Shown piece after piece: positions 26,488-48,011 of a stretch of 54,292 nt of DNA. Under the pieces are notes generated by a model that saw nothing but the letters and a program-made list of their open reading frames with translations, ran no database searches and was not told the DNA's origin. The stretch lies in the NCBI RefSeq assembly GCF_014610845.1, contig NZ_JABTCG010000010.1, forward strand, positions 1-54,292, given 5' to 3'. Both the position numbers and the translations under genes were made by a program. The number at the start of each line of letters is the position of its first letter. Position 1 is the stretch's first letter. The stretch comes from Maribacter arenosus (GTDB lineage Bacteria > Bacteroidota > Bacteroidia > Flavobacteriales > Flavobacteriaceae).

Positions 26488-26519
26488 CCGTCTATAATGG
26501 ACTTTGTATCTTAGATGTG

Positions 26520-27905: not shown

Positions 27906-27935
27906 TATTTATAGCCTTTAATGAAAAAGGTTAAC
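27906..27935 (-). promoter_or_regulatory. Shared element copy 1
   Basis: On the minus strand GTTAACCT, 15 nt, ATAAATA; it ends 29 nt before the ATG of collagen-like lipoprotein A. The left half is identical in nine of the ten copies. Layout suggests a -35/-10 pair for an alternative sigma factor. Confidence 0.7.
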
Positions 27936-27988
27936 ATTTAAATATGAAAAATCGAGGTGTGAGGGGCTCGGTTTATTGATTATTACGC

Positions 27989-28627
27989 TTAATGGTTAAG
28001 ATTAAAATAGTCCATTACCTCTTCATAACTCATTTTCGAAAAGTCGATTCTAGATTTACCTGAAATATTGGAAGGAATCGCAATATATCTGAATATATTC
28101 CCCGTAGTAGAAAATGACCATGTATCAGCGGGTCCTTCCTGTCGATATCTGATTTTCAGATTCGTGGGAGAGAAATAATAGGTGTAAATATGCTCGGTAG
28201 TTCCACCACTAATAGTCACAGGTAATTGTGCACTATGATCTGAAGGCCAAACCTCTGAAACGAAATTTGAAAATTTACCATATACCAGTAGCGTTCCATT
28301 TTCGTATAACCCAGCATCAATACCAGTTATATCCTTATCAAATTCGGCATATTTTGTATACCCATTGACTACAAAAGTTTGCCCAACAGGACCAAACCAA
28401 TCAGAAGCGATTACATTGGCATTGCCGTCTTCCCCATCTTGTCCATCAACCCCATCAACTCCGTCAATACCATCTGTTCCATCGGACCCATCTATCCCTG
28501 GGGGTCCTTGAACCCCATCAATGCCATCGAGCCCATTCGCACCGTCAGCCCCATCTTTTGAGCAAGATGTAAACGCAAGTGCACATATTACTAAACCCAA
28601 GGCTAAAAATTTTAATGTAGTTTTCAT
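27989..28627 (-). CDS. Collagen-like lipoprotein B
   Basis: 212 aa. Lipobox AFTSC (Cys22), then a collagen-like run rich in Asp (DGLDGIDGVQGPPGIDGSDG and on, about residues 27-72). A globular domain (VIASDWFGPVGQTFVVNGYTKYAEF, EHIYTYYFSPTNLKIRYRQ) and a tail MSYEEVMDYFNLNH follow. The tail matches MDYFxL in its neighbour, so the two are probably paralogs. It has its own shared element; only a weak hairpin follows its stop. Confidence 0.85.
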   Translation of the reverse strand: MKTTLKFLALGLVICALAFTSCSKDGADGANGLDGIDGVQGPPGIDGSDGTDGIDGVDGVDGQDGEDGNANVIASDWFGPVGQTFVVNGYTKYAEFDKDITGIDAGLYENGTLLVYGKFSNFVSEVWPSDHSAQLPVTISGGTTEHIYTYYFSPTNLKIRYRQEGPADTWSFSTTGNIFRYIAIPSNISGKSRIDFSKMSYEEVMDYFNLNH

Positions 28628-28653
28628 AATTTCTTGTTTTTATATCATTTGCC

Positions 28654-28683
28654 TTTTAATGGTTTTGGGTTTAAAAGGTTAAC
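28654..28683 (-). promoter_or_regulatory. Shared element copy 2
   Basis: GTTAACCT, 15 nt, ATTAAAA on the minus strand, 26 nt before the ATG of collagen-like lipoprotein B. It begins about 10 nt after the terminator of the preceding gene, so the left half is the outermost promoter part. Confidence 0.75.
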
Positions 28684-28692
28684 AATGGTGCA

Positions 28693-28721
28693 TAAAAAAA
28701 ACCGAAGTAGGTACCTCGGTT
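28693..28721 (-). terminator. Intrinsic terminator after the LRR lipoprotein gene
   Basis: A 10-bp stem (AACCGAGGTA / TACTTCGGTT, one G-T pair) followed by a run of T on the minus strand. Confidence 0.85.
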
Positions 28722-28754
28722 TAAATGCTATTTAATAGGTGTGTCCTTATTTCG

Positions 28755-30263
28755 CTAATCGCAGCTAACACCTTCGTCTTTGTAAATTAGGGTGCCATGA
28801 TCAGTTTCCAGGTCACAAACAACTTGAGGGATTGAGGTAAAACTATTAGTACGCAAATCCAACTCATCCAAGTTTATTAGTTCTCCAATGGAAAAGGGAA
28901 GGGTGCTAATGTTATTGTTTGATATATTTAATTCTATCAATGTAGTAAGTTGTCCTATTTTATTGGTTAGCGATGAGAAATTGTTACTGCCTATAGAGAA
29001 ATACTCAATACTTTCTAAATCCCAAATTGATTCGGGAAGATTGGTCAATTCATTGTCAGTAGCATAGAAATATTGCAGGTTTGTTAGCTGACCTATTTCT
29101 TGTGGTAGGGTTTCAATTTTGTTGGAACTGAAATTTAAATAGGTCAATTGGGCCAAGTTCCCAGTTTCAGCCGGAAAGGACTGCAAATTATTGTTGGAGA
29201 TATTAAGTTGTCTTAAATTTATTAGGGCGCCAACTTCGCTCGGTATGTAGGTTAAATTATTGTTGTTTAAACTTAAATTCCGAAGCTCCGTAAGTGTCCA
29301 AAATGCTGCTGGTAATGCCTCAAGCATATTATTGTCCACATAAAAACTTGATAAGTAGGTTAGTGATCCTATCTCTTCAGGAATAAAATCAATATTGTTA
29401 TTGGAGAGTTTTAGGAAGCTCAAGTACTTAAGTTCACCTAAGGCTGCGGGTATTACCTTTATGCCCTTTCCAGAAAGGTCTACCCAATGTATTTCTCCAG
29501 TTTCCCAGGTATTTACGCCCTCCAAAGTACTTAAATCCGGGGTGTTTAAGTCCCATCCCAAGGTATTTTCGGGATTCGTACTTAAGATATCCTCCAACAC
29601 CTTTTTTTGTTTGGTAGCAAGGTTGGTTAGATGGACCTCGTAGATATTGGAAGAACCGTCCTCAGCGGTTATAGTGTAGTTCACTTTTTCCGTGAAATTT
29701 TGGACTCCATTAAGGTCTATTGTGGCTCCAGGGGATAGTCCAATACTGGGGGTTATGGAGGACAGGTCTACATTATTGGGAATAGTTGCGGTAATCAATT
29801 TTAAATCTTCTTCAATCGTACAAACTACAATGGCCGTAAGTGATGGGTTGTCGGTAGGTGTAAAATTGAAATATGTTATTTTCTTTTCAGTGCTTTTGGT
29901 AATTAGGACCGTTACTTCATAAGCTGCCGTAGTTTTATCCTCAGCGGTAACCGTGTAAATTACAGTGTTACCAAAATCTTGGCTTGCCTTCGGGTCTATG
30001 GATGCCTTTAATGATACTTGAATACTGGGGACAAGACCATTTAAGTCAGTGCCAATTGGAGCCATTGCGACTATGGTTCTTGTGTCCTGATCAATAGTGC
30101 CGATAATATCCTGGGTCAAAGAAGGATTTTCAGTTTTTAATATTTTGAAGGCTGTTATTTGTTTGGCATCACTTAAATAAATGGTGCTGTCATCATCTTT
30201 CTGGCAGCCTATTGTTATTGTAAGTAGTATTAAAATTCCCAAGATTGAATTATAGATTTTCAT
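28755..30263 (-). CDS. Leucine-rich-repeat lipoprotein with two DUF5018-like domains
   Basis: 502 aa. Lipobox TIGC (Cys20). Two similar ~85-residue beta domains follow (ITAFKILKTENPSLTQDI..IYTVTAEDKTTAAYEVTV, and ITYFNFTPTDNPSLTAIV..NYTITAEDGSSNIYEVHL), of the DUF5018 kind. From about residue 250 to the end there are about ten leucine-rich repeats of the LxxLxLSNNNIxxIPxEIGxL type. LRRs of this kind bind proteins or glycans, so a surface recognition role is likely. It has its own shared element and terminator. Confidence 0.88.
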   Translation of the reverse strand: MKIYNSILGILILLTITIGCQKDDDSTIYLSDAKQITAFKILKTENPSLTQDIIGTIDQDTRTIVAMAPIGTDLNGLVPSIQVSLKASIDPKASQDFGNTVIYTVTAEDKTTAAYEVTVLITKSTEKKITYFNFTPTDNPSLTAIVVCTIEEDLKLITATIPNNVDLSSITPSIGLSPGATIDLNGVQNFTEKVNYTITAEDGSSNIYEVHLTNLATKQKKVLEDILSTNPENTLGWDLNTPDLSTLEGVNTWETGEIHWVDLSGKGIKVIPAALGELKYLSFLKLSNNNIDFIPEEIGSLTYLSSFYVDNNMLEALPAAFWTLTELRNLSLNNNNLTYIPSEVGALINLRQLNISNNNLQSFPAETGNLAQLTYLNFSSNKIETLPQEIGQLTNLQYFYATDNELTNLPESIWDLESIEYFSIGSNNFSSLTNKIGQLTTLIELNISNNNISTLPFSIGELINLDELDLRTNSFTSIPQVVCDLETDHGTLIYKDEGVSCD

Positions 30264-30289
30264 GGTCGTATATTTATATGAATTATAAA

Positions 30290-30319
30290 CTTTAATGGAA
30301 AATCAATTGATAGGTTAAC
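30290..30319 (-). promoter_or_regulatory. Shared element copy 3
   Basis: GTTAACCT, 15 nt, ATTAAAG on the minus strand, 26 nt before the ATG of the LRR lipoprotein and 11 nt after a terminator stem. Confidence 0.75.
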
Positions 30320-30330
30320 ATTTGTACATA

Positions 30331-30360
30331 AAAAAACCACGGTACTAGCCGTGGTTTTTT
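30331..30360. terminator. Intrinsic terminator after the Kelch-like gene
   Basis: A 12-bp perfect stem AAAAAACCACGG / CCGTGGTTTTTT with a 6-nt loop, 20 nt after the stop. Confidence 0.93.
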
Positions 30361-30380
30361 ATTTTATGATGTGTTTATTT

Positions 30381-31430
30381 CTAATCTACACTCCAAATAT
30401 TATTGCTTAGAATACTTACCATGGAGCCATCGAGCCTATATCCACCGAATACCCAGAGTTTGTCGTCGTAAACTAAGCTCTCATGACTTTGTAGGCCTTT
30501 GTAGAAGGGTGGTTTTCCGTCATACTTTGACCAATATTTCATATTTGTGGAGTACCAAATATCCCCATAAAAAGTACGTGAACCCGAGGTATCCCAACTT
30601 TCTCCTCCCACAACCCAGACCTTTCCATCAAATACAGTGGCCGTATGGTTAATTCGAGCGTCAAAAATAGCGTCGGCCGGTCTCTTTTGATACCAATAGC
30701 TTCCGTCCGGACTTGCCCATACTTCATTTGTCAATTCACCTCCGCGGATTAACCCACCATAGACATAGATAAACCCATTAAAAACAGCTGTTTTATAATG
30801 ACTCCTAACAGGGAAGGCATTGTCTGTTTCCATGCGCCAGTTGCTTCCATCCGAAGTAGACCAAACTTCCTGATTCGTGCGGCCATTCCCGCGAAAAACG
30901 TATATTCTATCATTAAATACTACGGAACTGTTTTGATCAATGTCCAGTAGGGGATTCAAATAATTTATGCGGTTCCAATGAATACCATCTTTTGTATTCC
31001 AAATATCGCTCAATACCTCCCCGTCATTGTTGATGCCACCGATCAGCCACATTTTATTTTTGAATACGATCAGGGAATGATTCCTGCGTTCATCGAAGAG
31101 GTTTGAAGTAACGAGTTTCCAGTCTATACCATTGGGACTTCTCCATACCTCTGAATTCGAGGTCCATGGTGGGGTGTTACCATTATCCCCACCCACTAGC
31201 CAAAGGTAGCCATTGAAAAAGGTCATGGCCTGCCCTGCAAATCCCCCCATTTTACTAGTTGAACTTTCAAGATTGAAATTTAATGAGATACTTGGGTACA
31301 GTGAGGTTCTTCCGGTGACTGCCTTATTATCAGGTAGATCATTGATCGGTTCAAGAAATAGTTCTTCTTTTTGACAAGACCATATCGTAAATGTCAAAAT
31401 GGTCAATGTAATTAATTTTGATAGTTTCAT
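30381..31430 (-). CDS. Kelch-like beta-propeller lipoprotein
   Basis: 349 aa. Lipobox IWSC (Cys19). The mature part is a series of about six ~45-residue repeats of the kind FNGYLWLVGG..SEVWRSPNGIDWKLV, FKNKMWLIGG..SDIWNTKDGIHWNRI, FDGKVWVVGG..and FYGDIWYSTNMKYWSKY. This pattern is that of Kelch-type propeller blades. Such propellers bind proteins or sugars; the ligand cannot be told. It carries its own shared element and a strong terminator. Confidence 0.85.
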   Translation of the reverse strand: MKLSKLITLTILTFTIWSCQKEELFLEPINDLPDNKAVTGRTSLYPSISLNFNLESSTSKMGGFAGQAMTFFNGYLWLVGGDNGNTPPWTSNSEVWRSPNGIDWKLVTSNLFDERRNHSLIVFKNKMWLIGGINNDGEVLSDIWNTKDGIHWNRINYLNPLLDIDQNSSVVFNDRIYVFRGNGRTNQEVWSTSDGSNWRMETDNAFPVRSHYKTAVFNGFIYVYGGLIRGGELTNEVWASPDGSYWYQKRPADAIFDARINHTATVFDGKVWVVGGESWDTSGSRTFYGDIWYSTNMKYWSKYDGKPPFYKGLQSHESLVYDDKLWVFGGYRLDGSMVSILSNNIWSVD

Positions 31431-31461
31431 AGGTAGTGGATTTTAACTGTTTTTCTTTTAT

Positions 31462-31491
31462 ACTTAATGCTGGTTCCAAATGAAGGTTAAC
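31462..31491 (-). promoter_or_regulatory. Shared element copy 4
   Basis: GTTAACCT, 15 nt, ATTAAGT on the minus strand, 31 nt before the ATG of the Kelch-like lipoprotein. Confidence 0.7.
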
Positions 31492-31529
31492 ACTATCATT
31501 CATTTTTTTAATAAGATTTCAAAAAGGAA

Positions 31530-31561
31530 AAATCCCTTACTTTGAAATTGGCAAGGGATTT
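31530..31561 (-). terminator. Intrinsic terminator after collagen-like lipoprotein C
   Basis: A 9-bp stem AAATCCCTT / AAGGGATTT with a 14-nt loop; the minus-strand 3' side is T-rich. Confidence 0.7.
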
Positions 31562-31573
31562 GACTTTGTATTA

Positions 31574-32707
31574 TTAGGGCAAGTCAACTTTTAGAAGTTT
31601 ATGGGTATTTCCTTCCCAAGATTCAGCACTTAACCAAAAATTGGTGCCATCATGGGTAACTCCATCAATGCTATGACCTTTGACCTCATAGGTTTCCAGA
31701 GCTTTAAATTCGGGTGTGGTCTGGCATTTGTGTATATAATTTCTTTCTGTGATATAGAGGTAGCCATTTCTATAATCAAGTCCGCCAGGCTGTATATCAA
31801 GAGGAATGGTTTCTAAAATTTCACCGGGAGATAAGGATCCATTTGATTTATATTGGTATAATGATTCCGCACTTGAGCTGGAAACCCAAAGTAATCCGGG
31901 TTCGATTGAAGCAATACCCCGAATCCAACTTCCAAGATTTTCAGAAGTGTAATACAAACTGTTAGAGGAATAGATATAGGAGTAGAAATTGGAACTACCA
32001 TTACTGCTCTGGAACAACTGTCTTGTAGGTGCGTCCGATTTTTCAATTTCAACGGCGTACGCAGCACGGGTGGTAGGAATGTTATCGACAATTGAAAAAT
32101 CATCGGGGTTGATCCGTAAAATATCACCTTCATTTTCATTGAACCCCAAAAGATATTCGCCATCAAAGGTTATATCTACATCCCTTTCCCAAGGTACTAC
32201 CCCCTCAGCTAGAATGGTCAGGGATTTGACCCATTCAGAAGGGTTTGGTCCATTTTCAATTTTTTGCAGCACTGTAGGTTCGGCTTCTCCCGGAGGAAAT
32301 ATGGTCAATATGTCATTATCCAATATATAATTGTTAATGGAGACTCCATAAGATTCGCCACTCATTGTAATCTGCTCTGAAGTTACCGTTATATTGGTAG
32401 TATATGCCCTTTTAAAGCCCATTTGATCCTCGGATAGAATATTTAGGGTGTTGTCCTCATTTATATAAAGTAATTTAGATGCATCAACACCTAATTGTCC
32501 CTCGATAACTTCCCATTGTCCAAATACTGCCATCTCTTCAACCTGGGCATTATCCCCGGGATCTCCTTTTGGCCCTTGTTCGCCCTGTGGGCCTTGGGCA
32601 CCAATGGCTCCGTCCAGGCCATCTTCACCATCTTTGGCGCATGAGGCCCCTAGTACCATTGCCAATACTACGACTATGTTCATTGATTTGTAAAATAAAT
32701 TTTTCAT
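31574..32707 (-). CDS. Collagen-like lipoprotein C with beta-propeller
   Basis: 377 aa. Lipobox LGASC (Cys23), then a short collagen-like stretch (DGLDGAIGAQGPQGEQGPKG and on, to about residue 51). A lipocalin-like strand region follows (FGQWEVIEGQLGVDASKLLYI, about 60-150). The C-terminal half looks like a beta-propeller (DITFDGEYLLGFNENEGDILRINPD; GLLWVSSSSAESLYQY; YLYITERNYIHKC; FWLSAESWEGNTHKLLKVDLP). It is divergent from the sigma gene, 234 nt away, and has its own shared element. Confidence 0.83.
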   Translation of the reverse strand: MKNLFYKSMNIVVVLAMVLGASCAKDGEDGLDGAIGAQGPQGEQGPKGDPGDNAQVEEMAVFGQWEVIEGQLGVDASKLLYINEDNTLNILSEDQMGFKRAYTTNITVTSEQITMSGESYGVSINNYILDNDILTIFPPGEAEPTVLQKIENGPNPSEWVKSLTILAEGVVPWERDVDITFDGEYLLGFNENEGDILRINPDDFSIVDNIPTTRAAYAVEIEKSDAPTRQLFQSSNGSSNFYSYIYSSNSLYYTSENLGSWIRGIASIEPGLLWVSSSSAESLYQYKSNGSLSPGEILETIPLDIQPGGLDYRNGYLYITERNYIHKCQTTPEFKALETYEVKGHSIDGVTHDGTNFWLSAESWEGNTHKLLKVDLP

Positions 32708-32731
32708 ACTATTTTGTTTTAAAGGTATATT

Positions 32732-32761
32732 CCTTTATAGTTCAGATTGGGATAGGTTAAC
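32732..32761 (-). promoter_or_regulatory. Shared element copy 5
   Basis: GTTAACCT, 15 nt, ATAAAGG on the minus strand, 24 nt before the ATG of collagen-like lipoprotein C. Confidence 0.7.
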
Positions 32762-32912
32762 ACGCCGATTACGTTTTTTTTGAAAAAAGCCAAAATCAAA
32801 TATTCTAGAAAAGTTATTGTAATACGATTACTACAGAAACCCGACATAACTACAATTGTCATAAAAGAAGTGGGCATAAGGGCATAAAAATGTTAAATTA
32901 GCTTAGTGAGTA

Positions 32913-32942
32913 GTTAACCTTTTTCATCCTGAACCATTAAAG
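32913..32942 (+). promoter_or_regulatory. Shared element copy 6, at the sigma factor gene
   Basis: GTTAACCT, 15 nt, ATTAAAG on the plus strand, so it points at the sigma gene. The right half runs into the GTG counted as start. If this is a promoter for the sigma gene, translation must begin further in, or the element has another role here. Its presence suggests autoregulation. Confidence 0.65.
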
Positions 32943-33511
32943 TGCAAGAAGAGCAAATACAAATAACGCTGGAAGAACTCAAGAAAGGTTCCGATAAGGT
33001 ATTGCGGAAGGTGTATGAGGAAAATCGAGATAAGTTTTTGAATTTTGCCCGCAGATACAATTTATCTGACGAAGAATATATTGATGTCTACCAAGATGCT
33101 TATATTATATTCTATGACAACATTATGACCGGAAAGATCGAAAGCTTCACTAGCAGTGTTTCTACCTATCTTTTTAGCATTGGCAAATACTTGATTTTTG
33201 ACAGGATGAAGAAAAACAAGAAAAAAACGAGTTCTGAATTCAATCTATCCTTGGTAGGCAAAGAAGATGAATTTATTACGGGCATTGAGCTTAATGAACC
33301 GGAAATGAGCCATGAACAAAAGTTGTTACAAAAGTATTTTGGAACGCTTGGAAAACAATGTCAAGAACTATTGACCCTTTTTTACTATCGCGGATTTACC
33401 ATACAGGAGATTATGGAGGCTGAAAATTATAATAGTGAAAATGTGGTTAAAAGTGCCAAGTCGCGCTGCATGAAAACGCTGAAAGAACGTATCCAAGCAC
33501 AAAAGGATTGA
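32942..33511 (+). CDS. ECF-type RNA polymerase sigma factor
   Basis: 189 aa from GTG. A sigma region 2 (residues about 25-95: ENRDKFLNFARRYNLSDEEYIDVYQDAYIIFYDN, then YLFSIGKYLIFDRMKK) and a region 4 helix-turn-helix (about 130-185: LGKQCQELLTLFYYRGFTIQEIMEAENYNS, then NVVKSAKSRCMKTLKERI). There is no region 1 or 3, hence the ECF class. Start uncertain: the GTG overlaps the right half of the shared element. CTG at 32969 or GTG at 33011 would give the leader length seen at the other copies or a longer one. It is followed 3 nt later by the TPR membrane protein gene. Confidence 0.9.
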   Translation: MQEEQIQITLEELKKGSDKVLRKVYEENRDKFLNFARRYNLSDEEYIDVYQDAYIIFYDNIMTGKIESFTSSVSTYLFSIGKYLIFDRMKKNKKKTSSEFNLSLVGKEDEFITGIELNEPEMSHEQKLLQKYFGTLGKQCQELLTLFYYRGFTIQEIMEAENYNSENVVKSAKSRCMKTLKERIQAQKD

Positions 33512-33514
33512 TTC

Positions 33515-34249
33515 ATGGATAAGGAAGAATTATTATATAAGTTTTTTTCAAACCAACTCACAAGTGAGGAGGAAAAAACGTTCCAAGAATTGTTGGAGAC
33601 CGATAAGGAGTTCAAAGCCCAATTCGAATTTGAAAACGATTTAAAGCGTGTTATTAAAAAAAATGAGAAGGAAAATCTAAAGCATAAATTGATTGGTTTT
33701 GAAAAGGAGATCAACGCGAAGGACAAAAATAACCCTTCAAAATGGACCTTTAAGAATTGGTCGATTGCGGCTTCCATAGCGTTGTTAGTTGGTTTGGGAT
33801 GGATTGCCTACAACACTTTTTCTGGACCGGATTACAACAAATTGTATGCGACCAATTTTGAAGCTTACCCTAATACGGTTTACACGATCACTAGAAGTGA
33901 TGGTGACCAATCCCTAGAAAGGGATGCTTTTGCAGCCTACGAGGCCAGTAATTATGAAAAAGCGGTCACTGCTTTTTTGGAACTAAAAATCGAGGGCAGC
34001 TCTACCCATACCGACTTTTACCTGGCACAATCTTATCTGTATTTAGGAAAGGATCAAGAGGCTATCGAAGCATTGAAAAGCACTATTTTAAACGACGCGG
34101 AATTTAAAGCCGAAGCCCATTGGTATCTGTCCTTGGCCTATCTTAAAAGTAAGAATAAGGAAAAGGCCATAGCTACCTTAAAGGGCCTTATTGAAAATTT
34201 CGATTACAATAAGGAAAGGGCACAGGCGCTTCTCAAAGCATTGGACTAG
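33515..34249 (+). CDS. Putative anti-sigma factor: membrane protein with TPR domain
   Basis: 244 aa. A charged N-terminal region (residues 1-80, DKEELLYKFFSNQLTSEEEKTFQELLETD) of the type found at the cytoplasmic end of FecR/anti-sigma proteins. One membrane helix (83-100) follows, then an outside part with about three TPR units (RDAFAAYEASNYEKAVTAFLEL; YLAQSYLYLGKDQEAIEAL; YLSLAYLKSKNKEKAIATL). Its place 3 nt after an ECF sigma gene and this layout suggest an anti-sigma factor that senses through TPRs; this is inference. Its stop shares CTAG with the CHAT gene stop. Confidence 0.75.
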   Translation: MDKEELLYKFFSNQLTSEEEKTFQELLETDKEFKAQFEFENDLKRVIKKNEKENLKHKLIGFEKEINAKDKNNPSKWTFKNWSIAASIALLVGLGWIAYNTFSGPDYNKLYATNFEAYPNTVYTITRSDGDQSLERDAFAAYEASNYEKAVTAFLELKIEGSSTHTDFYLAQSYLYLGKDQEAIEALKSTILNDAEFKAEAHWYLSLAYLKSKNKEKAIATLKGLIENFDYNKERAQALLKALD

Positions 34250-37008
34250 GTATTTCTTTTTCGGATTTTGAGGTAGAAAAATATACCCACAAGCAGAACA
34301 ATTACACCAATCAATAGCCAGGACCAATTATAGGTAGATGATAGGGGAGCGGTATTTCCTGAAATCACAAAACCGGACCAATAATACGGATGTGAAAAAC
34401 TGTTTTGTCGGTTGACGTTTAAAAATTCGACCTGTGCTTTTTGTAAAGCTACATCCTTGGCATCTCCCTTGGAAAGATTTTTATAGAAACCATGCATTAA
34501 ATCGGTAGTACTGGCATCGTTGATCTTCCACAAAGTACTGGCAATGCTCGCCGCCCCGCTATAAAAGAATCCTCTTGCCAAGCTCATAAAACCTTCGCCC
34601 CGTTTAAGATCCCCTATACCACTTTCACACGCACTCAAGGTTACTAAATCGGCATCTACTTTCAGGTTGTACAGGTCGGCAACATAGAGCAGGTTTTCCA
34701 TTGCGTTTTCGCTCTGTGAAAAGGCCAAATAGGAATATTCCGGAGCCCTGTCGTCAAAAATGGCATGTGTGGCCAAATGAACGATCCCAAAAGAGGATAG
34801 ATGGGATTTAAAGTTTAAGAGGGACGCCTCTTTATCGATAAAGGAACGGCCGTTGAAAGAAGTCAATATCTGCGCCACTTCTTTTTTATTGTTTGGCAAA
34901 GGCAGTAATTTTCCCCGGTCCGCATTGCTCACATTTACGGTACCATCAAAACTTGGGGCAAAGGCCAAAACAGTATGTTGCTTTGGCTGCCGTTGTCGTA
35001 ATTCCGAAAGCAGTGTGGCCGAATTGACATAGCTGATGGCATGTTTTTCGGCCAAATAGCTAACGTCTTCGGGTGACGTGTTCAAAGCGGCGAAAGGGAT
35101 ATAGTTCAAGAGGCCATCGGTAATGATGATAAGTTTCCTTTGGTCTTCAGATGTTAAGATGGGTTCTAGCAAGCGCGCATATAATTCATAGGTGGCACTG
35201 CCCAATGCTGCTACATTTGATTTTGGATTGGAAAGCATTCGATGAATCGATTTGAGCTTATTTTCAAAGGCTGCATCAATCTCTATTTTTTCAATTCGCG
35301 ATGCATTTTTGTCGACAACTAATGTATAAATGGCTTCATTTCCATAAAAATAGCTGATGAGCAATTCGTCCCTATCTAGCGTTTTTTTAAAATCATCTAA
35401 ATCGGTCGTATTGCGACCGTATCTTAAACGATAATATTCAGGATACGTTTTGGACATCGATTCCATAAGGTTTCTCTGTTGCTCTGTTAAATCAAAAATT
35501 GTACTCCTAAGTGGCTCTTTTTCATTGGACTCGATTAGCAATTCCTTTTTCAATGTGGTAATCTCAGAACGGAGTATGCGTTCTTTCTCCAAAAGCGAAT
35601 CGGGTACCTGCGCAAATTTGTCAGCTTTAGCGGCCATTAGGGCTTCTAACAACAAGACCGATTTGCTTTTTTCCATAAAAAAAAAGGCTTTTGTAACATG
35701 TTCTGCTTTGCCAGTTTTTTTGAATAATGAATAATTGGCCTCAAGGGCTGATTCAAACAAGGGAAAAGTCTTTTCTATCAGGTTGATCTTATCTGAACTA
35801 TATTGGTAATCGGATTTAAGACTGTCTAATGTGCTAACTGCTAATAATGACACCGTGTTAACCTCATTGTGTTTTTTCATATTGAGCAATGAGTTCGTTT
35901 TTAGGGCCATTAACTCCAGATAGGTCGTGCCAAATTTACTTGGTAAGATTTCCAGTCCTTGATCAGCCGCCATAAGTGCGTTTTTAAAATCTTTGGCAAA
36001 AACCAGAATATTTCCTCTTTCAAGATATATGTTGGCCAATGTCTCACTGTTCGTTTGTTCAGTGTGCTCAAGATAGGCATCAAAGGCAGAGTCAATTTCG
36101 CTCAAGGCACCTTCTATATTATTGCTTTCGTACTCCAACTTAGCACTTGTTCGGTGAAACAATTCTTTAAAGTGTGGGCTTCTATCCAAATGTATTTCCA
36201 TTAATGCCAAATAGTAGCGTGCACTGTCTTTCTTTGAAAGTACCAAATAGTTATCAGCCAAGTTATTGGCAACATTTATGATTCTGTTCGGGTTGTTGTT
36301 TAGCTTTAAGGCATCTGTGAGTGTCATTTTCAAATAGGAGTTGGCCTGCTTATAATCTCCTTGTTCGGTAAGAACTTCTGCCAACAATGCATAGTTGATA
36401 TTTAAACTGTTGAGATTTTCAGGAGTTACCTTCTTTATCAATGTTATTATTCTAAGGTAGTAGTCCTTTGCCAGGTCGAACTTGTCCTCTAACTGATATA
36501 TTTTAGCCAAGAAACTTATCGAATTAGAAAGTAGTTCAAAATGATCCGTTGTAAGTGATTCAGGCGAGTAATTTTGATAAGAGTTCTTTATTTCATTGAA
36601 ATAGGACTTTGCCCTGTTATTGTTTCCTAGTTTAAAATAATAATTACCCTTATCGGCTCGTATTGAATTACGGTATAAAAGTGCATCTTCTAGGTTTTGC
36701 AAGAATGAGGATTCTTCCTTTGCAATTTGATCAATTTTTTGAAGATTTTTCCGAATGCCGTTAAGGTCATAAAAATATCCCAGATGCCGGTTTGAAGTGA
36801 TTAGCATGTCAAGAACGGTCAGGGTATCCTTTTCGTCCAAAGCTAGTTGTTCTATTTTTTTGAAATAGTATTGTCCGGAGTCTTTTTGTACGCCATAATG
36901 GGTATAACCTTTTTCCAAGAGCATATTGATCTTGTTTTTATACGCGTTTTGCTGACCTAGCGTGGCAAAAAAAGACAATAATATAGGGATGATAAGTAAG
37001 CGCCTCAT
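34246..37008 (-). CDS. Membrane-anchored TPR-CHAT (caspase-like) protein
   Basis: 920 aa. Signal peptide (MRRLLIIPILLSFFATLGQQ), many TPR-like helices (residues about 20-480), a coiled linker, then a CHAT domain (about 560-890). The caspase-type dyad is present: H748 in LATHAIFD and C794 in TLSACESGIGD. A single helix near the C-terminus (WSWLLIGVIVLLVGIFFYL) with a basic tail should hold it in the inner membrane with the peptidase outside. CHAT proteins are caspase-clan peptidases. The sigma/TPR operon is convergent. A shared-element copy precedes it. Confidence 0.92.
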   Translation of the reverse strand: MRRLLIIPILLSFFATLGQQNAYKNKINMLLEKGYTHYGVQKDSGQYYFKKIEQLALDEKDTLTVLDMLITSNRHLGYFYDLNGIRKNLQKIDQIAKEESSFLQNLEDALLYRNSIRADKGNYYFKLGNNNRAKSYFNEIKNSYQNYSPESLTTDHFELLSNSISFLAKIYQLEDKFDLAKDYYLRIITLIKKVTPENLNSLNINYALLAEVLTEQGDYKQANSYLKMTLTDALKLNNNPNRIINVANNLADNYLVLSKKDSARYYLALMEIHLDRSPHFKELFHRTSAKLEYESNNIEGALSEIDSAFDAYLEHTEQTNSETLANIYLERGNILVFAKDFKNALMAADQGLEILPSKFGTTYLELMALKTNSLLNMKKHNEVNTVSLLAVSTLDSLKSDYQYSSDKINLIEKTFPLFESALEANYSLFKKTGKAEHVTKAFFFMEKSKSVLLLEALMAAKADKFAQVPDSLLEKERILRSEITTLKKELLIESNEKEPLRSTIFDLTEQQRNLMESMSKTYPEYYRLRYGRNTTDLDDFKKTLDRDELLISYFYGNEAIYTLVVDKNASRIEKIEIDAAFENKLKSIHRMLSNPKSNVAALGSATYELYARLLEPILTSEDQRKLIIITDGLLNYIPFAALNTSPEDVSYLAEKHAISYVNSATLLSELRQRQPKQHTVLAFAPSFDGTVNVSNADRGKLLPLPNNKKEVAQILTSFNGRSFIDKEASLLNFKSHLSSFGIVHLATHAIFDDRAPEYSYLAFSQSENAMENLLYVADLYNLKVDADLVTLSACESGIGDLKRGEGFMSLARGFFYSGAASIASTLWKINDASTTDLMHGFYKNLSKGDAKDVALQKAQVEFLNVNRQNSFSHPYYWSGFVISGNTAPLSSTYNWSWLLIGVIVLLVGIFFYLKIRKRNT

Positions 37009-37013
37009 AATAG

Positions 37014-37086
37014 TAAGTGCGACTTAGATCTTTAATCATTGAATTAGTATGAAGTTAAATTCAACGATTTTTCTAAGTCGCACTTA
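37014..37086. repeat. 15-bp perfect inverted repeat around the CHAT promoter region
   Basis: Arms TAAGTGCGACTTAGA (37,014-37,028) and TCTAAGTCGCACTTA (37,072-37,086), 43 nt apart. Shared-element copy 10 lies inside the loop. It fills the gap between the CHAT start and the next gene. There is no T tract, so a plain terminator is unlikely. Confidence 0.85.
37030..37059 (-). promoter_or_regulatory. Shared element copy 10, variant, before the CHAT gene
   Basis: TTTAACTT, 15 nt, ATTAAAG on the minus strand, 21 nt before the ATG. The spacing and right half match the other copies exactly; the left half differs at two positions. It may be a weaker site. Confidence 0.5.
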
Positions 37087-37109
37087 AGATAAATAAAATA
37101 CTTCTCTAT

Positions 37110-37715: not shown

Positions 37716-37876
37716 AATTCAAGTTTTAATGGTTAATATTAATGATTAAGTTTTTAGCTATTGATTATTATATTTTTTAATGTTGAATAATTAAGATAGT
37801 GATATGTTCTTCGTTGTGACCTAGGTTTAAGTGATGGCATGGCCATGTCTACATCTTAAAAATGACTGTTTGGTAT

Positions 37877-38329: not shown

Positions 38330-38372
38330 TTTTTAGCGTGTACTCCCAACTGAAGTATAAGCAATACATTAA

Positions 38373-42244: not shown

Positions 42245-42423
42245 AGTAAATTGATTTATCATATATGTTTTTTCAATAAATAAATTGTAGATCCAATCAT
42301 TATTTTACCTGGTTTGATTTTTTGCTGTTATGTTCATTGATAAAGAAATGTTAGGATCTGGTTTATTAAGTACCACCACCGGCAAAAGTGCAGGGGTTTT
42401 TTCTCAATACAGTCTTTAAAGTT

Positions 42424-43041: not shown

Positions 43042-43066
43042 GGGAAATTTTTTAAATGAACGTCGA

Positions 43067-43414
43067 TTATTTTATACTATCTTTTTTTGTTTTGAGCAGC
43101 AGTTCTTGGGACATGGCCGTCTGCAGGGAATCCTTACCCTGGGCATCCAACGCTTGGGAATAGCGATGATAGGCATCCCTTAAATCTTGTTTATCGGCCT
43201 CGGGCATATCGCTTTTGTTCACCAGATCCATATAGTTGTTCACCTCTCCATTGCCACCTGTTAGCTCCTCGCCAAAAATGTCCCCTAAGGTGCTTGCCTG
43301 CAGATCCAAAAAGTTATTGGTGACTGGGGATTCCGGTTTGGGATCGGTCTGTGCCTGAGCGAATGTAAGGCCGCCTAAAAAGATTAATACTAGCAGTGTT
43401 TTTAATGTTTTCAT
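43067..43414 (-). CDS. Small secreted protein, paralog 1
   Basis: 115 aa. Signal peptide (MKTLKTLLVLIFLGGLTFAQA), then a helical domain with NNYMDLVNKSDMPEADKQDL, RDAYHRYSQALD and KDSLQTAMSQELL. The gene just upstream encodes a protein with the same pattern (SYLDLVEQANFPPDIKKTIL, LYELSLDPRKKDSL), so the two arose by duplication. Function unknown. Shared-element copy 7 sits 34 nt before the ATG. Confidence 0.75.
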   Translation of the reverse strand: MKTLKTLLVLIFLGGLTFAQAQTDPKPESPVTNNFLDLQASTLGDIFGEELTGGNGEVNNYMDLVNKSDMPEADKQDLRDAYHRYSQALDAQGKDSLQTAMSQELLLKTKKDSIK

Positions 43415-43448
43415 AGTTCTCGTTTTAAGATTTTTACGTGTTGTTACC

Positions 43449-43478
43449 CTTTAATGGAAAGCAATGAAAAAGGTTAAC
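43449..43478 (-). promoter_or_regulatory. Shared element copy 7
   Basis: GTTAACCT, 15 nt, ATTAAAG on the minus strand, 34 nt before the ATG of paralog 1 and beginning 1 nt after the stop codon of paralog 2. Confidence 0.75.
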
Positions 43479-43479
43479 A

Positions 43480-43890
43480 TTAGTTTTGTTCTGCCATCGA
43501 TTTGGCCATGGCTTCATTCAGTTTTTCATTGAAGATAAGTTTCAGGGAATCTTTTTTTCTAGGATCTAGACTAAGCTCATAAAGTTTATATTGATCCAGA
43601 ATGGTTTTTTTGATATCGGGCGGAAAATTCGCTTGTTCTACGAGATCAAGATAGCTGTCCACATCTTTCAGTGCCCTCCCTTCTTCGGTATCCACATTCC
43701 CTAAAACCTTAGAGAGTATTTTAGCCTGTTCATCCAAAAGGTTCATCTGTTTCATGGTATCTTTATTGGTTATTGCTTCCTCAACTTTGGGTACTTCTGC
43801 CTCTTCTGGTTTTTTTGCATTGGTATTTCCACAACCTGTAAGGACAATAGAAAGGACAGAGGCAACTAATATTATTTTTAAAGTGTACAT
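43480..43890 (-). CDS. Small lipoprotein, paralog 2
   Basis: 136 aa from the Met that begins the lipoprotein signal (MYTLKIILVASVLSIVLTGC, Cys20). A frame starting eight codons earlier would overlap shared-element copy 8 and bury the signal, so I reject it. Mature part: Lys/Glu/Pro linker, then a helical domain homologous to its downstream neighbour (DLVxxxxxP, KDSL blocks). Unlike paralog 1 it is lipid-anchored. Confidence 0.78.
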   Translation of the reverse strand: MYTLKIILVASVLSIVLTGCGNTNAKKPEEAEVPKVEEAITNKDTMKQMNLLDEQAKILSKVLGNVDTEEGRALKDVDSYLDLVEQANFPPDIKKTILDQYKLYELSLDPRKKDSLKLIFNEKLNEAMAKSMAEQN

Positions 43891-43913
43891 GGTATATTTT
43901 TCTTTTGTTTGCA

Positions 43914-43943
43914 TTTCTATGTTATCGCTGTAAAAAGGTTAAC
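43914..43943 (-). promoter_or_regulatory. Shared element copy 8
   Basis: GTTAACCT, 15 nt, ATAGAAA on the minus strand, 23 nt before the chosen ATG of paralog 2. Confidence 0.65.
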
Positions 43944-44120
43944 ATTAACTAACCCTTTTTATAGGGTATGTGAAATCGATCTACACAATATTCCATTTTA
44001 TTTTCAATACGCGTCTTACTTTACCTTTTACATCCTATAAAAGTTGTGTTCTCTTCCTATAATGCTATGAGCGAAAAAATATTTTCCCGACAATTATGAT
44101 TAAAATAATAAGCATTTCTT

Positions 44121-45656
44121 CTAATAACCCTCGTTTCTCATACACTCTGCAAATGAATCTTCCATGCCCATGGCGACCATCTGTTCGCAAATTACCTGCG
44201 ATTTTTCTTTGCGTAAGTCTTCCAGCTGGGCATTTTTGACATCAATACAACGGGCATTCATACAGCGTTTCTTTTCCCTTTCTACGGTTTGCCTTCGTAT
44301 ATCGATACTTCGTAACCTGGCTTCTAATTCATCCATTTTTGCGAAGGCCGCCGTACCGTAATCGCCACCTATGGTCAGCGGATTGTACCCGGCACCATCA
44401 AAGGTGATGCCCATAGGTTTGATTGAGAGCAACTCGGTTTCCATAACATCACCACTACCTTCACCACCGATATTAACCCTGTTATAAACCACCAAACGAT
44501 TGCATTTTGCCTCGCGGGCATCTTTAAGCACCCCTACCATAAAGCCCATCATAATACAGGAAGTTTTTATGGGCGTGGGGGTGGAGTCAAAATAAATGTT
44601 CCATGTGTTTTCAATGCCCGTAGGTCCTTCGATTAACTTTCCTTTGTAGCCTTGGACCATCCCATCCCATTGTACGTGTGTGGGAAGGGGGTCGGCATGC
44701 TCGGCCAACGCTTCGGAAGAACTAAAAAACTGCATCATGTTTAAATAGTCGCTACCCCACTTCCCTTCGGCCGTCTGAATGCTTTCCCTTGTAACGGCAA
44801 CATTCCGGTCTTCCTCGGCATCATATCCATAGACTACCATTTGCCCGTTGGCCAGCCAAATGGCCCCATCAACCCTACCAAATCGATCGGAATACCTAAA
44901 ATTAGTCTTGAAAAAACCAAAGGGCCCTCCTGGGAATAGCATACTCCCGTCTGCCGAATTAACGTAATACTCCAATTTTAATTGGGTGGGATTACCACGG
45001 GAGTATTCCGGACTAAATCCATCCATGTCCGACATCTGAAAGTCTAGCAATGCCTCTATCTTATAATCAAACTTGAAAACCCCGTTTATTTCATCAACCG
45101 GATTGGCAGGCATGCTGCTTTCCGCATCCACGGGAGCAAGACATTCGCCACTTGCCGAGGACGTACCGCTGCCACTTCCAACAATGACAGACTGCCCGTC
45201 ACCATCGTCCTCATCGTCCGGGTCGTCCGTTACATTTCCGTCCCCATCGGTGTCAACCCCATTGTTAGGCACACTATCATAATCCAAGAGATTACTTGAT
45301 ATGACCTCCGCCAGATTGGTATGGTCCCCAGAGGCTTTTACTGCAGCCGATATGGTCAAGATAGCAATTGCACCATCTCCCAATGCCCCAATATTCCATA
45401 CACCGCTGATTTCATTGTAGTTACCCGCGGCCGTATTGGCACCCTCAAAGTCATATCCCGAGGGCAATCTGTCCATAACCTGTACCCCGGTAGCCATATC
45501 GGGACCGTCATTGGTAACAATAATAGTAAAGGTTACCGTTTGTCCTATGTCAACTAAATTGTCATCTACACTAAGATCCAAACTTAAATCCGCCGATTGT
45601 GAAATAACCCCAATAGACCAGAGAAGACAACATAAGAAATGTCCAAGTTTCTTCAT
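44121..45656 (-). CDS. DUF11-domain secreted protein
   Basis: 511 aa. Signal peptide, then a DUF11 beta-sandwich domain (residues about 22-130: VDIGQTVTFTIIVTNDGPDMATGVQVMDRLPSGYDFEGA). An Asp-rich calcium-binding-like linker (NNGVDTDGDGNVTDDPDDED) follows, then a ~300-residue domain of unknown type (YSRGNPTQLKLEYYVNSADGSMLF; VQWDGMVQGYKGKLIEGPTG). The C-terminal helical segment has five Cys (KKRCMNARCIDV, SQVICEQM, SFAECMRN). DUF11 domains are usual in surface and adhesin-type proteins. Its upstream region holds only a poor match to the shared element. Confidence 0.82.
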   Translation of the reverse strand: MKKLGHFLCCLLWSIGVISQSADLSLDLSVDDNLVDIGQTVTFTIIVTNDGPDMATGVQVMDRLPSGYDFEGANTAAGNYNEISGVWNIGALGDGAIAILTISAAVKASGDHTNLAEVISSNLLDYDSVPNNGVDTDGDGNVTDDPDDEDDGDGQSVIVGSGSGTSSASGECLAPVDAESSMPANPVDEINGVFKFDYKIEALLDFQMSDMDGFSPEYSRGNPTQLKLEYYVNSADGSMLFPGGPFGFFKTNFRYSDRFGRVDGAIWLANGQMVVYGYDAEEDRNVAVTRESIQTAEGKWGSDYLNMMQFFSSSEALAEHADPLPTHVQWDGMVQGYKGKLIEGPTGIENTWNIYFDSTPTPIKTSCIMMGFMVGVLKDAREAKCNRLVVYNRVNIGGEGSGDVMETELLSIKPMGITFDGAGYNPLTIGGDYGTAAFAKMDELEARLRSIDIRRQTVEREKKRCMNARCIDVKNAQLEDLRKEKSQVICEQMVAMGMEDSFAECMRNEGY

Positions 45657-45853
45657 GATTTCCTATTTTTAGTAATGGCTTCTATATTCTTAGAACTATG
45701 GCCATATCAATTAACTAAATCATATCTATCTAATAAATCAATTCATAGGATAAATGGTCGATACCACATAGGTAACCATCCAAGTACCATAAGTCAAATG
45801 CCAAAAAATTCATCAAACCCCATTCTCGGGCGAACTTTAAGGGATATGTTTAG

Positions 45854-46525
45854 CTATTCCGTAAAGCTTGTCAGTACACTTTTCCCAATTAGCGCTCCTT
45901 TTTTATTATAGGTTTCAGACTTTACCATACCAAAACCTTCCGAAAGCCAAAGCTTATTGCTATTGGTCATTTTAAAGCCCATTTTGGCCTCACTGTCATA
46001 GGTGATCACATAACAATCGAAAGTACCGGCCGGCGTCGTAACGGATTCATTGCCTTGAACTTTCCGATTATAAAAATTCATATTCATTTTCATATTCATT
46101 GGAGGCATTTTAACGGTCATCAACACATCGGCATCGGGTAATGACTGGCCCACACTAAGATTATTCGGATATAAAAGGTCTGTACCGCTCATTTCTACCT
46201 CCATATCCTCGTATTGCCCCAATATCTCTGGAGACATCATAGAGCTGAAATCAATGGTGACCCCATCATTGGTGCAAGTGACCCCATATTCTGAACTGGT
46301 TATCATTTTTCCTTTGTCGTCATGCATTTCGTAGAACATGGTAGCGGTATTTCCACTAACTTCCTTAACAACGTAATCTATTACCGCAGATGCCCTATCT
46401 TTTTTGTCATAATTGGTAATTTGAAATTTGGTGCCCTCATCCATCGGAAAGTATTTGCTGCAATCCTGTGAAACGACAGTAGTAGTGATGCAAAATAGGG
46501 CAAATACAAGAGTTGTTGTTTTCAT
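45854..46525 (-). CDS. TapB-like (DUF3108-related) secreted protein
   Basis: 223 aa. Signal peptide (MKTTTLVFALFCITTTVVSQ), then a single beta-rich domain: YFPMDEGTKFQITNYDKKDR at the start, TPAGTFDCYVITYDSEAKMG and KLWLSEGFGMVKSETYNKKG at the end. This order resembles TapB/DUF3108-like proteins, beta-clam folds of the periplasm. It starts 39 nt after the OmpA gene upstream and so probably shares its transcript and element copy 9. Confidence 0.75.
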   Translation of the reverse strand: MKTTTLVFALFCITTTVVSQDCSKYFPMDEGTKFQITNYDKKDRASAVIDYVVKEVSGNTATMFYEMHDDKGKMITSSEYGVTCTNDGVTIDFSSMMSPEILGQYEDMEVEMSGTDLLYPNNLSVGQSLPDADVLMTVKMPPMNMKMNMNFYNRKVQGNESVTTPAGTFDCYVITYDSEAKMGFKMTNSNKLWLSEGFGMVKSETYNKKGALIGKSVLTSFTE

Positions 46526-46564
46526 AATGTTATAGTTAAAGTGTTATTGATTATCGATTAATTC

Positions 46565-47893
46565 TTATTGTTTTATAAACTCTACCCTTCTGTTTTGGGC
46601 CTTGCCATCAGGGGTGCCGTTATCACCTACCGGTTCCGATTCCCCTTTGCCTTCGGTTGAAAGCCGAACACCGTCAATATTGTACACATTTACCAGGGCA
46701 TTCTTAACGGCTTCAGCGCGTTCTTTAGACAATCTCATATTAGATTCATCAGACCCATCGGCATCTGTATGCCCTACAATCTTAAGATTCATCCCTGCCT
46801 CCTGTTGCAGTACCTGCGATATTTGCAAGATAATCCCCATCGATTGGGGTTGGATATTGGCGGAACCTGAATCAAAGAGGATGCCATTGGTGGAAACCGA
46901 TCCTTCGGAAATTAGTTTTCTTCGCAAGTCTACCCCTCCTTCTGCGACTTTTAAGTTTTTAATGAACATTCGCTCCTTGCTATCCTTAAAATAAAGCAAT
47001 TCAAATTTCAGGGTGGTCATCCTCGGGTTTTGCGGAACGAACCTGGGAATATCTATATATTTGTTTTCGTTTACCCATAGCCGGAAGCGCTCTTTGTTTA
47101 CCGCCACCGAGATATGCGGTTGTGCTAGCACGTCTTGCCGAATATCTCCCTGTATCGTATTACTGATATCGCCTGGCCGATTATGTACCAGGAAACCGAC
47201 GGGATGGTACTGGCAAAATGGGATATAAGCCCTGGCATAATTCCCCCATTTAAACGACTTGTCATCTGACAGAACCACAGCGAGTCTGGCAGTGGAAGCC
47301 GTCTTGGGGTCGAGCCCGGTGGCCATGATATCAAATTCAATCGTGTATTCTTCAGGGAGGGTTGGCACGTCTGGGATGTAAAAGGTAGAATGCCCTGCGA
47401 TGATTTCAAACCACTTTTCAGTGCTGTTGTTTATGGTAACCACTTCGCCAGAACCATTCGTATTCCATTTGGAGGGGAAATCACCGATAAAATCGTTGGA
47501 GAAATCATCAAAGAAAATAATGTTGTCACCCGGCACAAAGTCAAACTTACTATATACCTGTATGCTTTTAGGGCCGCCTGAAACCGTAGGGGTTGCAGTG
47601 GGATTGGTTCCTTGACCACTTGTGCCAGTAGGGGATGGTGTCTGTGGTGGGGTAGGTGTGCTTATTTGTGGATCTGTTGGATTCTGCTTGGAGCCTGGTT
47701 CTAAAATGCTATCTAATACCTGATCCGTTTTTTTTGAGGTTTCCCTATCTACCCTTCGTTCTACCGTACGTTCTGCAGCTCTTTCTGCCCTTTTACCAAG
47801 CTTTTTCAAGAGTTGCCCGTTTGCGTTTAGGGTAAAAGCAAAAATAAAGAGTAGGGACGTAAAAAATCGAATTAAAGTGTTTGAAGTTTTCAT
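46565..47893 (-). CDS. OmpA-family protein with glucanase-like middle domain
   Basis: 442 aa from ATG; an in-frame TTG two codons earlier is possible. Signal peptide (ending NANGQ), a basic amphipathic stretch (LLKKLGKRAERAAERTVERR), a Pro/Thr-rich linker (about 75-110), a beta-sandwich domain (about 125-320: FFDDFSNDFIGDFPSKWNTN, EYTIEFDIMATGLD) that resembles concanavalin-like folds, and a C-terminal OmpA domain (ILFDSGSANIQPQS; IVGHTDADGSDESN; GKAQNRRVEFI). The layout is known from other flavobacteria. It is led by shared-element copy 9. Confidence 0.88.
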   Translation of the reverse strand: MKTSNTLIRFFTSLLFIFAFTLNANGQLLKKLGKRAERAAERTVERRVDRETSKKTDQVLDSILEPGSKQNPTDPQISTPTPPQTPSPTGTSGQGTNPTATPTVSGGPKSIQVYSKFDFVPGDNIIFFDDFSNDFIGDFPSKWNTNGSGEVVTINNSTEKWFEIIAGHSTFYIPDVPTLPEEYTIEFDIMATGLDPKTASTARLAVVLSDDKSFKWGNYARAYIPFCQYHPVGFLVHNRPGDISNTIQGDIRQDVLAQPHISVAVNKERFRLWVNENKYIDIPRFVPQNPRMTTLKFELLYFKDSKERMFIKNLKVAEGGVDLRRKLISEGSVSTNGILFDSGSANIQPQSMGIILQISQVLQQEAGMNLKIVGHTDADGSDESNMRLSKERAEAVKNALVNVYNIDGVRLSTEGKGESEPVGDNGTPDGKAQNRRVEFIKQ

Positions 47894-47981
47894 GATCAAT
47901 CTTTCAAGTGTTAATTAAATGATGGAAATTATCTAAATGATATGGCCAAAAGCCGGCATTTGTTTCCAATACTTACTACCA

Positions 47982-48011
47982 TTTTAATGGTTTTACAGAA
48001 TAAAGGTTAAC
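47982..48011 (-). promoter_or_regulatory. Shared element copy 9
   Basis: GTTAACCT, 15 nt, ATTAAAA on the minus strand. It lies 88 nt before the OmpA start, a longer leader than at the other copies. The rest of the gap up to 48,157 holds nothing else I can name. Confidence 0.65.

Follow-up and report, generated by a model that had tools for sequence, protein, structure and literature searches.

Extracytoplasmic function (ECF) sigma factors are mostly described as self-amplifying regulators. In the sections drawn on here, a review gives as their hallmarks an AAC in the -35 box, a CGT in the -10 box and positive autoregulation, and it adds that the definition was afterwards restricted to domain content (PMC8103513). 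This analysis concerns an ECF sigma gene of the flavobacterium Maribacter arenosus that may be wired in the opposite way. The gene lies on contig NZ_JABTCG010000010.1, of which positions 1 to 54,292 were analyzed; this whole stretch of 54,292 nucleotides (nt) is termed the window. The window also contains nine copies of a promoter-like motif made of two parts, GTTAACCT and, 15 nt further on, ATWAAR or a close variant. One of these copies, termed P2, lies across the start codon of the sigma gene itself. If the negative feedback proposed below is true, the locus would be a clean and conserved example of the opposite wiring in dozens of lineages.

The closest described arrangement is found in Corynebacterium glutamicum, in which sigH is transcribed from housekeeping promoters and the only gene driven by a SigH-dependent promoter within sigH is the anti-sigma gene rshA (PMC3489674, in the part cited). 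What is proposed here is the same in that a sigma-dependent promoter at the sigma coding region would serve the anti-sigma gene. The two differ in that the C. glutamicum transcript of about 370 bp most likely carries rshA alone, whereas here the motif straddles the start codon (in 79/80 related loci), and in that phylum, regulon and promoter sequence are different. A second point of comparison is the type III-E CRISPR system, in which a protease with tetratricopeptide repeats (TPR) and a CHAT domain, Craspase, cleaves a sigma-factor inhibitor, and relief of inhibition has been proposed (PMC10028731, in part). Both loci encode a TPR-CHAT protease, an ECF-like sigma factor (CASP-sigma in the CRISPR case) and an inhibitor together. 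Here, however, the inhibitor and the protease look membrane-anchored, and cleavage is proposed from sequence. No Cas domain was found in a Pfam scan of 20 window proteins, which was not a systematic search for CRISPR effectors. In Myxococcus xanthus, the ECF factor DdvS has a transmembrane cognate anti-sigma factor, DdvA (PMC4374960, in the part cited). In the portions used of the open-access literature, no account of this locus was found among papers on ECF factors with CHAT proteins in Bacteroidetes or on sigma-dependent promoters that cover a start codon. A site that straddles the start codon would differ from the known internal anti-sigma promoter, and the wiring that we infer from it is opposite to the positive autoregulation listed for ECF factors.

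The motif at the sigma start codon

The right half of P2 (32936-32942) runs into the GTG start codon of the sigma gene at 32942-32944. The original prediction had taken this copy for an ordinary promoter of the sigma gene, a role that is unsupported, as the motif straddles the start codon of the gene it was meant to serve. The same arrangement is seen in relatives. GTDB genomes were scanned with patterns from close homologs, and the best 80 of the 103 loci found were compared. They come from Arenibacter, Maribacter, Zobellia, Kriegella, Lacinutrix, Bizionia, Winogradskyella, Aquimarina, Polaribacter and other genera, many of them uncultured. With up to one mismatch allowed, the motif overlaps the sigma start codon in 79 of the 80 loci, at a spacing of 15 nt in 65 and of 16 nt in 14; 70 of the 79 overlapping motifs are mismatch-free and 9 have one mismatch. 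After rough clustering, the overlap is found in 61/62. When 200 shuffled motifs were used, the mean overlap was 0.59 of 80; two of these 200 decoys exceeded 10/80 (largest 74). Start codon and motif are combined as ATTAA-ATG in 37 loci, as ATTAAA-GTG in 22, one base earlier with ATG in 16, and with GTG directly behind ATWAA in 4. The overlap has been kept while register, codon and spacing changed, and it is established as a sequence fact.

Upstream of P2 lies a second promoter-like element, P1, whose box TAAATTAG would place a transcript start near 32906. In flavobacteria, the housekeeping box is TAnnTTTG at -12 to -5 (PMC9723704, in part). Among relatives, a box of the form TAnnTT[TA]G is found upstream of 50/78 sigma sites compared to 3/214 target sites, and shuffles lead one to expect 4/78. 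A looser form is found at 58/78 sigma sites compared to 5/214 target sites, and the box lies 17-20 nt upstream.

The explanation that we consider best, with a probability of roughly 0.7, is a self-limiting switch. Full-length sigma factor would be made from P1, the upstream housekeeping-like promoter. We infer that RNA polymerase loaded with this factor would read GTTAACCT-N15-cATWAAa as a -35/-10 promoter, and would thus drive a local regulon whose products are lipoproteins of the cell surface and secreted proteins, several of them with collagen-like repeats. At P2, the same polymerase would start about 7-8 nt behind the -10 element, at a predicted position of 32948-32950, which is inside the sigma open reading frame (ORF). 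Since P2 straddles the start codon, the sigma-dependent transcript would lack the sigma start codon and keep the anti-sigma gene, so that no normal sigma factor would be translated from it. A transcript that cannot give sigma factor but gives anti-sigma factor would mean negative feedback. In addition, P2 lies within the first transcribed bases predicted for P1, and polymerase on P2 would hinder P1 as the two compete. Active sigma factor would therefore raise its inhibitor and lower its own synthesis. The neighboring TPR-CHAT protease is the best candidate for the release of sigma factor, for which it would cut the membrane anti-sigma factor. Negative feedback by decapitation or by occlusion, taken together, is, if anything, slightly more probable than this explanation as a whole.

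A second reading is that P2 is a roadblock only: the sigma-loaded polymerase would shut P1 and give no useful transcript. The position of P2 relative to the predicted P1 start favors this reading. It is further favored by Streptomyces coelicolor sigma-E, reported as a direct repressor at overlapping motifs (PMC10771440, in the part cited); there, too, repression by an ECF sigma factor is proposed for places where its motif and another promoter overlap, although what is described concerns other genes rather than a conserved site at the gene for the sigma factor. However, P2 is free of mismatches to the degenerate motif in both halves at 70/79 loci and should fire. Moreover, the window holds no other site that scores above 8 between the sigma and anti-sigma genes (by the matrix described below), which leaves P2 as the single candidate observed through which feedback could express the anti-sigma gene. 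A roadblock without a useful transcript is unlikely, and as it overlaps the self-limiting switch, the odds of the two are not exclusive.

Less probable still is that P2 serves ordinary positive autoregulation, in which a working sigma factor would be made all the same, from a leaderless or very short message or by way of an internal start. A review counts positive autoregulation among the hallmarks first drawn for ECF factors, with exceptions, and puts the share of factors predicted to be autoregulated at about 55% (PMC8103513, in part); binding of the sigma factor at its own gene is also what positive autoregulation predicts. But a start 7-8 nt behind the -10 element would fall inside the ORF. 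After the overlapping start codon, 76/79 loci lack a canonical in-frame start before codon 13 and all 79 lack an ATG before codon 19, and yet the N-terminal residues of the sigma factor are conserved. Leaderless messages, for their part, make up 5.5% of those mapped in Flavobacterium psychrophilum (PMC9723704, in the part cited).

The motif and its presumed reader

The self-limiting switch presupposes that the motif is a promoter of the local sigma factor. The ten sequences of the original prediction are all found at the positions it gave, and nine of them have an identical left half, as it had said. There are 7 exact matches to GTTAACCT-N15-ATWAAR in the window, between 28.6 and 48.0 kb, compared to 0 in 100 shuffles, and the same 7 are the sole exact matches in the whole genome (4,168,565 bases). 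When up to one mismatch is allowed, the window has 9 matches against a shuffle mean of 0.14 (largest 1), the additional two being the copies at 27906 and 43914 with one mismatch each. Looser versions are background: with 3 mismatches, 27 matches are observed in the window and 32 expected, and with 2 mismatches the genome has 178 compared to 445 for a reversed control. A further perfect GTTAACCT at 35857 (+) is not followed by a right half at the required distance.

Comparison with relatives defines the motif more closely. Loci of 17-20 kb around sigma homologs of relatives were collected (36 in all; in 23 of them the sigma gene is one that also occurs among the 80 loci above, so that the two sets are not independent), and 32 of these together with the window were used for spacing. 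Among 245 half sites, ATWAA follows at a spacing of 15 in 147 and of 16 in 24, while every other spacing from 3 to 30 is found at 10 half sites at most. In a control with five permuted half sites, spacing 15 is found in 1/443, and no spacing in more than 9. A score matrix was built from 96 target sites of relatives, excluding the window; as these sites were picked with the motif pattern, this is not de novo discovery. The matrix puts nine window sites above 17, which are the nine copies with a perfect left half, and no other site above 8; the reversed window yields none. The consensus from relatives is tGTTAACCTTtt-N-cATWAAa. The -35 half holds the AAC hallmark of ECF promoters in all nine window copies.

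The presence of the motif also follows that of the sigma gene, whose product matches TIGR02937 with 57.5 bits over residues 21-183 (cut-off 42.9) and Pfam sigma-70 region 2. Within the genus, a sigma homolog of at least 70% identity is present in 4/12 genomes. Exact motif copies occur in those same 4 genomes only (6-7 each, within 20 kb), as does the anti-sigma gene; the other 8/8 have no exact motif, three of these eight being only 68-83% complete. Homologs of the OmpA-like target gene (67-70% identity) in three genomes of the genus without the sigma gene have the motif in 0/3, one of them, L103, being covered for about 175 nt upstream only. In a scan of 397 genomes of the family, 67 have a sigma match (E 1e-30 or better), and the motif counts were read by eye from a table. 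All 24 genomes with at least three exact copies are among these 67, and genomes without a sigma match have at most two. Sigma homologs of at least 58% identity go with at least three exact copies in 22/25 genomes, compared to 2 (G060 and G145) of the other 42, which have more distant homologs. Region 4 of the sigma factor, the part that recognizes the -35 box, shows strong conservation across 12 homologs. It is thus very likely that the motif elements are promoters read by the local ECF sigma factor, and the genome comparison supports the original prediction well in this respect.

That a conventional transcription factor binds the motif instead is very improbable. Its left half contains GTTAAC, which is palindromic like many repressor sites. 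However, the two boxes stand at a fixed 15-16 nt, in -35/-10 geometry, and two sites lie right behind terminator-like hairpins with little room for another promoter. Both the tracking of the sigma gene by the motif and the strongly conserved region 4 point to a sigma factor as well. Chance resemblance in AT-rich spacers can be dismissed, since it accounts for the looser versions of the pattern but not for 7 exact copies in the window, with none in 100 shuffles or elsewhere in the genome, nor for conservation across genera.

Several observations weigh against the self-limiting switch and its promoter code. The -10 half is ATWAAA (cATWAAa in relatives), and the CGT of classical ECF promoters is absent. 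Outside the window, three one-mismatch sites that have no secreted target reach 16.6-18.4, in the range of the weakest window sites, so that score alone does not set the latter apart. Some carriers have few exact copies, both among close homologs (G397 and G101 with 1 each, G305 with 2) and among less similar ones (G228, G241 and G359 with 1 each, G187 with 0). The 80 loci were selected by patterns from close homologs and are related by common descent; one of them, L198, has no overlap at the sigma gene found, and 9/79 have an in-frame canonical start 21-39 nt upstream, so that the motif there may lie inside the ORF and not across its start. The strict box TAnnTTTG is present at only 11/78 sigma sites (2/214 targets), and the relaxed forms, which like it cover the -7 box only, were chosen after inspecting the sequences. 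Translation of the anti-sigma factor from the decapitated message is a presumed step. Finally, the second gene is a putative anti-sigma gene from synteny, helices and sub-threshold profile matches (19/45).

Other sigma homologs are also found. Two genomes of the genus have a second homolog (44-45% identity), which in L077 is accompanied by homologs of the anti-sigma and CHAT genes. The GTTAACC motif was not found in L077 nor in the 3.5-kb loci L012 and L013, and these homologs presumably read another promoter. L076 and L079 have sigma homologs of 48-50% identity with anti-sigma and CHAT homologs and without the GTTAACCT motif; by eye, L079 shows a variant, GTTTACCT-N15-ACTAAT, at its start codon. 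This suggests that promoter specificity has drifted. In L198, the contig of a metagenome-assembled genome, a second sigma-like gene has the motif across its start codon (L198:10800-10900).

The putative anti-sigma factor and the TPR-CHAT protein

The putative anti-sigma gene starts 3 nt behind the sigma stop codon. An AlphaFold2 (AF2) model of its product has helices within residues 3-69 and 80-103, followed by TPRs (predicted local distance difference test, pLDDT, 85.9; predicted template modeling score, pTM, 0.58). The segment YPNTVYxITR behind helix 80-103 is strongly conserved. The profile NF052375 matches 19 of 45 members at E up to 1, and the window protein is below its cut-off. A Foldseek search with the model returned TPR structures only.

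In the window, the third gene is convergent with the anti-sigma gene and encodes a TPR-CHAT protein that matches PF12770 at E 4.4e-66. The His/Cys pair is kept in 37/37 aligned homologs, a first pattern match that had suggested loss of the cysteine in some orthologs being overturned by the alignment. A C-terminal hydrophobic segment is present in 35 of the 37, and the protein is probably anchored outside the inner membrane. The structural model has a pLDDT of 82.6, with low confidence just behind the Cys. Its fold matches are led by DdvA (PDB 8rw5 and 8rot, E 3.7e-12), followed by Craspase TPR-CHAT chains and separase, and then by many TPR proteins. The likeness to DdvA is limited, however: the superposition is weak (TM-score 0.39, 11% identity), many unrelated TPR proteins match too, and anti-sigma factor and CHAT protein are separate genes here. 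Searching PDB sequences with the CHAT profile and with the CHAT domain gave TPR or chance matches, and PADLOC returned nothing for the three module proteins. Profile, alignment and model identify a CHAT (clan CD) fold with the catalytic His/Cys pair, which makes this protein a putative protease.

The three genes keep together. Sigma, anti-sigma and CHAT genes are present in 36/36 loci, across which CHAT identity falls to 26%, and the CHAT gene is not convergent in some. In the 80 loci, the anti-sigma gene is found in 79 and the CHAT gene in 78, with a close, convergent arrangement in 70; the contigs of L162 and L188 are short. The locus offers a CHAT protease with an obvious candidate substrate. 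That the protease releases sigma factor by cutting the anti-sigma factor has somewhat less than an even chance of being right. More tentative still is the general picture of a conserved Flavobacteriaceae switch, in which a decapitating promoter and a membrane TPR-CHAT protease, a cousin of Craspase outside CRISPR, would control a collagen-like coat.

Predicted regulon and neighboring features

The features of the window are collected in the table below.

Coordinates of the module genes, promoter-like motifs and hairpins in the window
Feature	Position	Strand	Remarks
ECF sigma factor gene	32942..33511	+	189 aa, GTG start; TIGR02937, Pfam
Putative anti-sigma factor gene	33515..34249	+	244 aa; N-terminal helices, hydrophobic helix about 80-103, YPNTVYxITR, C-terminal TPRs
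TPR-CHAT protein gene	34246..37008	-	920 aa; signal-like N-terminus, TPRs, CHAT domain His748/Cys794, C-terminal hydrophobic segment
P1 box, TAAATTAG	32894..32901	+	one base off housekeeping -7 box TAnnTTTG; 19 nt before GTTAAC
P2, GTTAACCT-N15-ATTAAAG	32913..32942	+	across sigma GTG start; matrix 20.8
Promoter-like motif, one mismatch	27906..27935	-	before collagen-like lipoprotein gene 27271-27876; matrix 27.2
Promoter-like motif	28654..28683	-	before collagen-like lipoprotein gene 27989-28627; matrix 42.1
Terminator-like hairpin	28722-28699	-	directly ahead of 28654 motif
Promoter-like motif	30290..30319	-	before leucine-rich repeat (LRR)/DUF5018 lipoprotein gene 28755-30263; matrix 31.5
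Symmetric hairpin	30331-30360	+ in scan; T run seen on -	ahead of 30290 motif
Promoter-like motif	31462..31491	-	before Kelch-repeat lipoprotein gene 30381-31430; matrix 17.6
Promoter-like motif	32732..32761	-	before lipoprotein gene 31574-32707; matrix 20.4
Promoter-like motif	43449..43478	-	before small secreted-protein gene 43067-43414; matrix 39.5
Promoter-like motif, right half ATAGAAA (one mismatch)	43914..43943	-	before small lipoprotein gene 43480-43914; matrix 20.9
Promoter-like motif	47982..48011	-	before OmpA-domain protein gene 46565-47899; matrix 32.3

The original prediction held that each copy points at a gene, with the ATG usually 21-34 nt further on. Eight of the nine copies do precede genes, while the sigma copy overlaps the GTG start, and the copy of the OmpA-like gene ends about 88 nt ahead of the likely ATG. 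The small lipoprotein gene 43480-43914 likely has its true start (MYTLK...) 8 codons inside. Lipoprotein 31574-32707 has a short collagen-like stretch, and its gene is divergent from the sigma gene. The two sites at 28654 and 30290 lie directly behind hairpins with a T run, in agreement with the claim that copies begin just after terminators.

A wider view comes from the 80 related loci, which contain 240 non-redundant target sites. An ATG-started ORF follows within 120 nt in 227 and is lacking in 13, and in 194 of the 227 the ATG lies 15-39 nt behind ATWAA. Another 13 targets start closer than 15 nt; 4 of these are sigma genes, and the other 9 have, in our reading, a further in-frame ATG among their first 10 codons. 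A simple rule classes 144 targets as lipid-anchored-like and finds a hydrophobic, signal-like segment in 72 more, but this hydropathy rule is loose, as 216/227 targets pass and 10/18 background ORFs of the window do so too. Collagen-like triplets are found in 53. From the locus, a promoter code can be predicted for part of the Flavobacteriaceae, together with a defined surface-protein regulon.

The tenth sequence, a variant at 37030 previously read as the promoter of the CHAT gene, was rejected. It does not reach 8 with the matrix, no motif lies within 200 nt of the CHAT gene in relatives (0/67), and the variant is inside a perfect 15-bp inverted repeat. The arms of this repeat, upstream of the CHAT gene, are at 37014-37028 and 37072-37086 with 43 nt between them, and no second copy was found in the window at up to 2 mismatches. 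The motif does occur on the CHAT strand within 1.6 kb upstream in 33/67 relatives, compared to 0 for two decoy patterns, and the CHAT gene may in relatives be part of the regulon by way of an upstream operon.

Twelve sites elsewhere in the same genome were read, eleven with one mismatch and one with two. Matches had been expected to be commoner upstream of genes than inside them; this is the case for the window copies, but 7/11 of the one-mismatch sites elsewhere lie inside reading frames, and looser matches are therefore uninformative. These seven, two of which score 16.6 and 18.4, were not counted as targets. Nor was L211 (18.3), which stands before a short, 66-aa ORF that lacks a signal, and L202, L204 and L212 have matrix scores below 0. 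A likely remote target outside the window is a gene for a 280-aa lipoprotein in L201 (G000:C1:728000-729900), which is preceded at 36 nt by an intergenic one-mismatch site (C1:729343-729371, matrix 22.2).

The block is flanked in the window by genes of the lipB type (26517-27221) and the rnhB type (50650-51246). In related loci, homologs within the fetched stretch are found for lipB in 25/36, for rnhB in 23/36 and for both in 19/36. As these flanks recur, the chromosomal position of the module is often the same, and it is the lipoprotein genes that vary.

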